A DNA stretch of 64,000 nucleotides from Bacillota bacterium (GTDB taxonomy: Bacteria; Bacillota; Clostridia; Clostridiales; Clostridiaceae), in the NCBI GenBank assembly GCA_021781745.1, contig JAJXWH010000025.1, positions 1-64,000 of the forward strand, in the 5' to 3' direction. This document shows positions 45,500-46,651 of this stretch, in pieces (the first letter of the stretch is position 1; each line of letters begins with the position of its first letter). Under the pieces are notes generated by a model. The model had not been told where the DNA came from and searched no databases. It saw only the letters and a list, made by a program, of their open reading frames with translations. Made by a program: the position numbers and the translations under genes.

Positions 45500-45882
45500 G
45501 TTTACAAAAGAAGCCATGCATTGGTAAGAGGAAGATGTAAAAAATGTATTAAAATTATGTTAATATAATATTCTGTTGTCAAATTATGTTAGAAAGTGAA
45601 CTGTAAGGAATGTTCTTTATTTTAAATAAATATTAAACTTTTGATTAAAAGCGTAGTTTTAGTTTTGTATATAAATTCCATTATTTCGATAGAGAATTGG
45701 ATTTTATATATTTTGCAAAGTGTGATTATGTAATTTATTTACAATAAAATAAAAATCATGTGGAATTGCGTTGTGAACGTGTGTTGAATAATAAATACAT
45801 TGATGTTAATATTATACATATGATAATAAAGTTGTAAAAAATACAAGTCATTTATATGTTCGTAACATTAATAGGATTAAAA

Positions 45883-45957
45883 ATTGGAAACTGTGAAAAA
45901 TTCTCTTTATTTGGGCACCTGGGGAATTTGGAGTTAGTGGTGCAACCGGCCAATAAT
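45883..45957 (+). ncRNA. class II cyclic di-GMP riboswitch aptamer
   Basis: tttGGGCACctgg...GAGTTAGTgGTGCAACCGgCC matches the recalled conserved core of c-di-GMP-II aptamers (UUGGGCAC...GAGUUAGUAGUGCAACCGACC); P1 ATTGG(45883-45887)/CCAAT(45950-45954); GCACC/GGTGC stem. Confidence 0.75.
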
Positions 45958-45984
45958 GAGTTTGTTATTAATTATTATTGGAGG
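45950..45984 (+). promoter_or_regulatory. predicted riboswitch expression platform (alternative SD-sequestering hairpin)
   Basis: CCAATAAT (45950-45957) is exactly complementary to ATTATTGG (45974-45981), which overlaps the SD GGAGG (45980-45984). Confidence 0.6.
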
Positions 45985-45991
45985 TATTATT

Positions 45992-46144
45992 TTGGAAAAG
46001 ATAGAGTTTAAAGTGTTAGAACTATTTACTGGATATTTAATATGGATTGAAAATAATAAGTTGGAAGATAACATTAATAATTATATTCTTTATATTAACA
46101 GTATGGATAAAAATAGTAGTAAAGATTTCAAAAGGTATTGTTAA
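45992..46144 (+). CDS. ~50-aa micro-ORF downstream of the c-di-GMP-II riboswitch
   Basis: TTG start 7 nt after GGAGG; MEKIEFKVLELFTGYLIWIENNKLEDNINNYILYINSMDKNSSKDFKRYC. Confidence 0.6.
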   Translation: MEKIEFKVLELFTGYLIWIENNKLEDNINNYILYINSMDKNSSKDFKRYC

Positions 46145-46263
46145 TAAAAGTTAGAATTCAGCAAAACAATCTAAAGTCTATAGTCTGCTACAGAAGAATT
46201 TAATGTATTGCAATCCGCTTGCAACAAGCAGTTATAATTAAAACATAAAATCGAATCAAGAGT

Positions 46264-46299
46264 AAAGGTAGATTAGGTAGAAATGCTTAATTTACCTTT
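46264..46299 (+). terminator. hairpin terminator
   Basis: AAAGGTAGATTA...TAATTTACCTTT followed by T-rich tract. Confidence 0.6.
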
Positions 46300-46480
46300 A
46301 ATTTTTGTTTGAATTAAATATTACGTTATTAATTCATATGGTGTTAGATGAGAGAGATTAAAGCGATTAAAATTATGAATAAAACTCTTATTAATTAATA
46401 TTGATTATTATATAATAAAATGTTATAATTTACTTAAGATTAAATAGTATTAAATATGATACTTAAAGGAGGGAATGAGA

Positions 46481-46651
46481 ATGGGAAATTTAATAAAGAT
46501 AAATATATATGCTGATTTAAATAAAAGAAAAGGATATGTACTAGATTTTAAAAATTTAGAAGCAAATATTTCAAATTATAATAACTGGTTACAAAAGACT
46601 CACAGAGAGGATAAAATCGAAAGTTATGAAAAGTTTTTACAAGCTAAATAG
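46481..46651 (+). CDS. 56-aa micro-ORF, possible paralog of the 45992 ORF
   Basis: ATG after taaaggagggaatgaga; MGNLIKINIYADLNKRKGYVLDFKNLEANISNYNNWLQKTHREDKIESYEKFLQAK; shares GY..(7-9 aa)LExNIxNY with the upstream ORF. Confidence 0.6.
   Translation: MGNLIKINIYADLNKRKGYVLDFKNLEANISNYNNWLQKTHREDKIESYEKFLQAK

Follow-up and report, generated by a model that had tools for sequence, protein, structure and literature searches.

A class II c-di-GMP riboswitch in Clostridium predicted to turn on translation of a 50-amino-acid protein

The class II c-di-GMP riboswitches of C. difficile are ON switches that act on transcription, with one translational exception that operates via a group I ribozyme (PMC6366702, PMC11477304). 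In this exceptional system, Cdi-2-1, a class II aptamer is coupled to a group I ribozyme and gene expression is turned on at translation initiation (PMC11477304). Here we describe a class II riboswitch from a 64-kb stretch of DNA (hereafter the window), part of a 5.7-Mb draft genome, that quite probably turns on translation of a 50-amino-acid protein at high c-di-GMP. Same-genus comparison genomes included those of Clostridium sp. LS (G031) and C. puniceum (G021). The window switch resembles Cdi-2-1 in having a class II aptamer and, by prediction, ON control at translation initiation. However, Cdi-2-1 makes its ribosome-binding site by splicing, whereas the window switch would sequester its Shine-Dalgarno (SD) sequence directly, and no group I intron was found by Rfam in the 64-kb window. 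The ON-terminator class II switches, such as pilA1 / Cdi-2-4 of C. difficile and most copies in this genus, share with the window switch the aptamer, the competing 3′ strand of P1 and, by prediction, the ON direction. These RNAs end the competing hairpin in a U-tract, whereas the window hairpin ends in an SD and a start codon, and therefore translational control is predicted.

Only one gathering-level Rfam match was obtained by cmscan in the 64 kb, to RF01786 (c-di-GMP-II) at 45877-45960 on the plus strand. Its components are as follows.

45877-45960, plus strand: c-di-GMP-II aptamer (RF01786; cmscan 84.2 bits, cutoff 53.5, E 1.1e-17, model positions 1-84, full length)
45883-45887, plus strand: 5′ strand of P1, ATTGG, pairing with CCAAT at 45950-45954 (5/5)
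45889-45935, plus strand: P2 (45889-45891 / 45933-45935) around the apical stem (45898-45905 / 45922-45929), with every pair formed when compared with the Rfam structure
45915-45943, plus strand: pseudoknot of GCACC (45915-45919) with GGTGC (45939-45943), from sequence and genus covariation

The full-length match, well above the cutoff, bears out the class II identity proposed in the first-pass annotation of this DNA. When checked against the Rfam structure, all pairs are intact in the inner portion of P1 (5/5), in P2 (3/3) and in the apical stem (8/8), and so the earlier description of the apical hairpin as poorly paired was wrong. The helix pairs of P2 and the apical stem are retained in 54-56 of 56 genus sequences. 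Broken pairs occur only in the outer extension of P1 (45879, 45881 and 45882), a region that pairs poorly in most genus copies as well. The pseudoknot, previously described as a compensated stem, indeed exhibits covariation at its last pair, where 51 of 99 genus copies have U-A and 30 have C-G. From sequence and predicted structure, the window element is confirmed as a full-length, well-formed class II aptamer that should bind c-di-GMP. It yields the top score among the nine c-di-GMP-II copies of its genome, and with the same model the Clostridium sp. LS ortholog scores 85.2 bits.

Downstream of the aptamer is an arrangement that could couple ligand binding to ribosome access.

45945-45985, plus strand: predicted SD-sequestering hairpin, in which 45945-45947 and 45950-45959 pair with 45972-45981 and 45983-45985 (MFE folding)
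45980-45984, plus strand: SD sequence GGAGG, 7 nt before the TTG, buried in the hairpin
45992-46144, plus strand: ORF1, a 50-amino-acid microprotein with a TTG start (substitution pattern, homologs, predicted helix-loop-helix)

The first-pass annotation had observed that an extended 3′ strand of P1, CCAATAAT (45950-45957), is complementary to ATTATTGG (45974-45981) at the SD; these positions, and those given for P1 (45883-45887/45950-45954), the GGAGG (45980-45984), the TTG (45992) and the stop (46144), are correct. The 5′ arm of the hairpin is the 3′ strand of P1. Specifically, CCAATAATGA pairs with TTATTATTGG, and the ACC that precedes it pairs with GGT, thereby burying the two GG pairs of the SD. 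The segment 45944-45986 folds with an MFE of -12.4 kcal/mol (z = -3.4), which was equaled by 0 of 200 shuffled sequences. In the ligand-free ensemble, nucleotides 45980-45981 and 45983-45984 are essentially always paired, and A45982 is bulged. Over the region 45877-46005, the hairpin state (-23.8 kcal/mol) is better by 9.5 kcal/mol than the P1 state (-14.3 kcal/mol), as computed with an energy model that ignores the ligand and the pseudoknot. It would therefore fall to the ligand to hold P1 together, as is the case for other ON switches.

We propose that, without ligand, CCAATAATGA and the adjacent ACC would pair with UUAUUAUUGG and GGU to bury the SD. When c-di-GMP is present, the pseudoknotted aptamer would hold P1, thereby blocking the hairpin and permitting ribosomes to start at the UUG at 45992. 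The alternative hairpin thus buries the SD while sharing a strand with the helix that ligand is expected to stabilize, and this arrangement is conserved in the Clostridium sp. LS ortholog, where the hairpin stem is identical and the loop carries one change. That species has kept aptamer, hairpin stem and SD without change despite about 5% divergence of the surrounding DNA. Because only these two closely related genomes (~95% identical DNA) have the arrangement, its conservation is weak evidence.

A search of the genus identified 124 class II matches in 35 of 69 genomes, and 101 copies were inspected together with their downstream DNA. A terminator was assigned if the 3′ strand of P1 or its flanks form a helix that is followed by at least 6 T in 10 nucleotides. 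By this definition 92 copies carry terminators, two are of the SD type and seven are unclassified. Several of the seven resemble terminators by eye, and so at least 92 of the 101 are terminators. The two SD-type copies, which alone lack a U-tract and have a buried SD, are the window switch and its Clostridium sp. LS ortholog. In the genus terminators, the 5′ arm is likewise the 3′ strand of P1, consistent with the known ON logic. The closest sister switches, which reside upstream of chemoreceptor-like genes, align with the window copy across the hairpin. In the alignment with one of these (G031:C185), TTATTATTGG is kept, and the stem is followed by CCTTATTTTTTATAAAAG there and by AGGTATTATTTTGGAAAAG in the window. 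This correspondence suggests that a terminator was remodeled into an SD-sequestering hairpin; most likely, a typical class II ON-terminator would have retained its hairpin while its U-tract gave way to an SD, a spacer and a TTG start codon.

The same comparison raises the question of whether the switch still operates mainly on transcription, with the hairpin at 45945-45985 and an imperfect U-tract forming a weak terminator that is read through when c-di-GMP binds. The hairpin arm is the one used by the sister-switch terminators, terminators predominate overwhelmingly in the genus, and the stretch after the window hairpin, AGGUAUUAUUUU, retains 7 U in 12 nucleotides. However, an AGG directly after the stem interrupts the tract, which also encompasses the SD and start codon, and with AGGTATTATTTT following the stem the window copy falls below the terminator definition that 92 others satisfy. 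We consider mainly transcriptional control unlikely, although some residual termination at the U-rich stretch is possible. The translational ON architecture predicted by the first-pass annotation is instead supported by the covariance model, by folding, by conservation in a second species and by comparison with about 100 sister switches.

A terminator-type class II switch of the genus (G007:C27:48903-48986) is located 79 nt before the gene for a 60-amino-acid Spo0E-like protein (PF09388, 38.9 bits, cutoff 23), where c-di-GMP may feed directly into the control of sporulation. Another (G000:C24:694-777), with relatives in G002, G003, G007, G013, G029 and G031, precedes a conserved protein of 67-70 amino acids (MKIHNEIMKVINDNL...) that lacks any Pfam match. 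About 500 nt beyond this one, G000 and G031 carry a further class II switch that precedes a CheY-like gene. At one locus (G000:C118), a class II riboswitch shares its strand with one of class I (c-di-GMP-I-GGC) about 1 kb away.

Another 44 class II copies, which with few exceptions come from other genera and families of the class, comprise 27 terminators, four clear SD-type copies (L236, L241, L243 and L246) and 13 that are unclassified. As in the window copy, the 3′ strand of P1 in these four is complementary to the SD region, for example as CCTTTCTTT...AAAGAAAGGAG ahead of a start codon, but they belong to other families of the class and precede other genes. The window copy is thus not the only class II aptamer to which direct translational control can be ascribed. 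Judging from the stems, whose sequences are unrelated (CCTTTCTTT/AAAGAAAGG and others), the SD-sequestering switches outside the genus appear to have arisen separately. One of them, L246, is the second member of a direct tandem of class II aptamers (with L220; G523:C1:1601258-1601427) separated by 2 nt, and it is this second aptamer that carries the SD-sequestering tail.

ORF1 differs between the window and Clostridium sp. LS by five synonymous and three replacement changes. When the same changes are placed at random, so few replacements with no stop arise with p of about 0.02. Homologs exist in four other Clostridium genomes, G031, G012, G021 (C. puniceum) and G029; those in the latter three are 33-41% identical and reside at unlinked loci, with no c-di-GMP riboswitch recognized within about 1.5 kb of flanking sequence. 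The window's genome has, on a different contig, a decayed paralog with two stops, and of 208 family genomes searched the others gave no significant homolog. Positions L, Y, W, D, Y and Y are invariant among the known relatives, and for ORF1 AlphaFold predicts a helix-loop-helix (pLDDT 69, a low to moderate model confidence). The bias towards synonymous changes and the homologs at unlinked, switch-free loci suggest that ORF1 is probably a real gene.

The true product might instead be an RNA, or a 62-amino-acid protein (MSLLLIIIGGII-LEKIEF...) from the ATG at 45956, inside the aptamer tail, in a frame that is open in both species. No SD precedes 45956, whereas GGAGG stands 7 nt ahead of the TTG, and alignment with the homologs starts at the TTG, the extension being absent from them, making such a product very improbable compared with the 50-amino-acid protein.

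No significant match to ORF1 was found in Pfam, NCBIfam, PHROGs or PDB sequences, and none in phage and plasmid collections. Two candidate relationships were rejected: a Spo0E-like small phosphatase (no PF09388 match for ORF1 or any relative, and no SQELD motif) and, from a likeness by eye, a tyrosine recombinase N-domain (spacing misfit, no Pfam support). A LexA-like box, CGAACATATGTTT, precedes both the G012 homolog and the decayed paralog; the exact pattern is found just once in the genome and is no evidence for SOS control.

The end of the transcription unit and the gene beyond it are defined by three features.

46263-46310, plus strand: intrinsic terminator ending the riboswitch-ORF1 unit (stem 46263-46300, then ATTTTTGTTT)
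46401-46429, plus strand: promoter-like site of ORF2, TTGATT-17-TATAAT (consensus scan only)
46481-46651, plus strand: ORF2, 56 amino acids, dispersed multi-copy Clostridium family (family search; profile match to the ORF1 family)

Given the strong terminator after ORF1 and the separate promoter-like site, the riboswitch most likely controls ORF1 alone, and ORF2 is probably outside its control. The terminator element (46261-46320) recurs with 83-95% identity at many other genus loci, in several cases immediately behind or close to ORF2-family genes, and thus represents a dispersed conserved terminator.

The ORF2 family, with the pattern MGNLIKIN...REDKIE.YE.FLQ, yields 91 matches in 21 of 69 genomes, as proteins of 55-56 amino acids present in 1-9 copies in each of the 21, and the nearest genes vary from copy to copy. 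Profiles of the two families align over 26 columns with the core Y..W[LI].....ED.I..Y (hhalign probability 64%, P 6.6e-5), a match that none of 5000 column shuffles equaled. For ORF2, AlphaFold also predicts a helix-loop-helix in the stretch shared with ORF1 (pLDDT 61, again low to moderate confidence). ORF2 differs from ORF1 in its N-terminal part, in having a promoter-like site of its own and in the many copies per genome of its family. With moderate confidence, the profile match places ORF1 as a distant member of the ORF2 small-protein superfamily. ORF1 and its relatives form a narrow family of predicted helix-loop-helix microproteins, and the ORF1 product is probably a small helical regulator. 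The earlier view of ORF1 as an orphan of no recognized family holds with respect to Pfam, NCBIfam and PHROG assignments, but not with respect to its homologs in four Clostridium genomes, its decayed paralog and its distant kinship with ORF2. On five occasions, against 0.24 expected, an ORF2 relative was observed no more than 1.5 kb from a class II switch, although two of these cases form a single ortholog pair and the rest are not necessarily independent. A dedicated role for the ORF1 protein in c-di-GMP signaling is doubtful because its relatives elsewhere have no recognized c-di-GMP riboswitch, and a function as a c-di-GMP effector peptide is possible but not supported.

In the inspected sequence downstream of the helicase orthologs of G013, G068 and G067, there is no sign of the riboswitch-ORF1-ORF2 block, which therefore belongs to the lineage of the window itself. 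This variability among species, which includes absence of the riboswitch itself, would also fit a relic copy that lies beside a small gene and has no regulatory role today, and some predicted c-di-GMP riboswitches of C. difficile do not regulate (PMC6366702). A relic seems distinctly improbable, however, for a copy that outscores the other eight of its genome and whose aptamer, stem and SD have stayed unchanged while the surrounding DNA diverged.

The class II riboswitch of the window is thus sound, and the translational ON platform predicted for it is unusual for its genus. We tentatively suggest, as a reading that falls somewhat short of probable, that in one Clostridium lineage a terminating class II switch was rebuilt as a translational ON switch, placing a member of an unnamed, dispersed family of helical microproteins under c-di-GMP control. 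Sequence comparisons suggest that the targets of class II switches in the genus include several small proteins without a name and, in a single genome, a Spo0E-like regulator of sporulation. If our reading is true, the locus would offer a near-snapshot of a riboswitch changing its output from transcription to translation by few base changes, with aptamer and ON logic kept, and it would point to a Clostridium microprotein family worth examining in c-di-GMP physiology.
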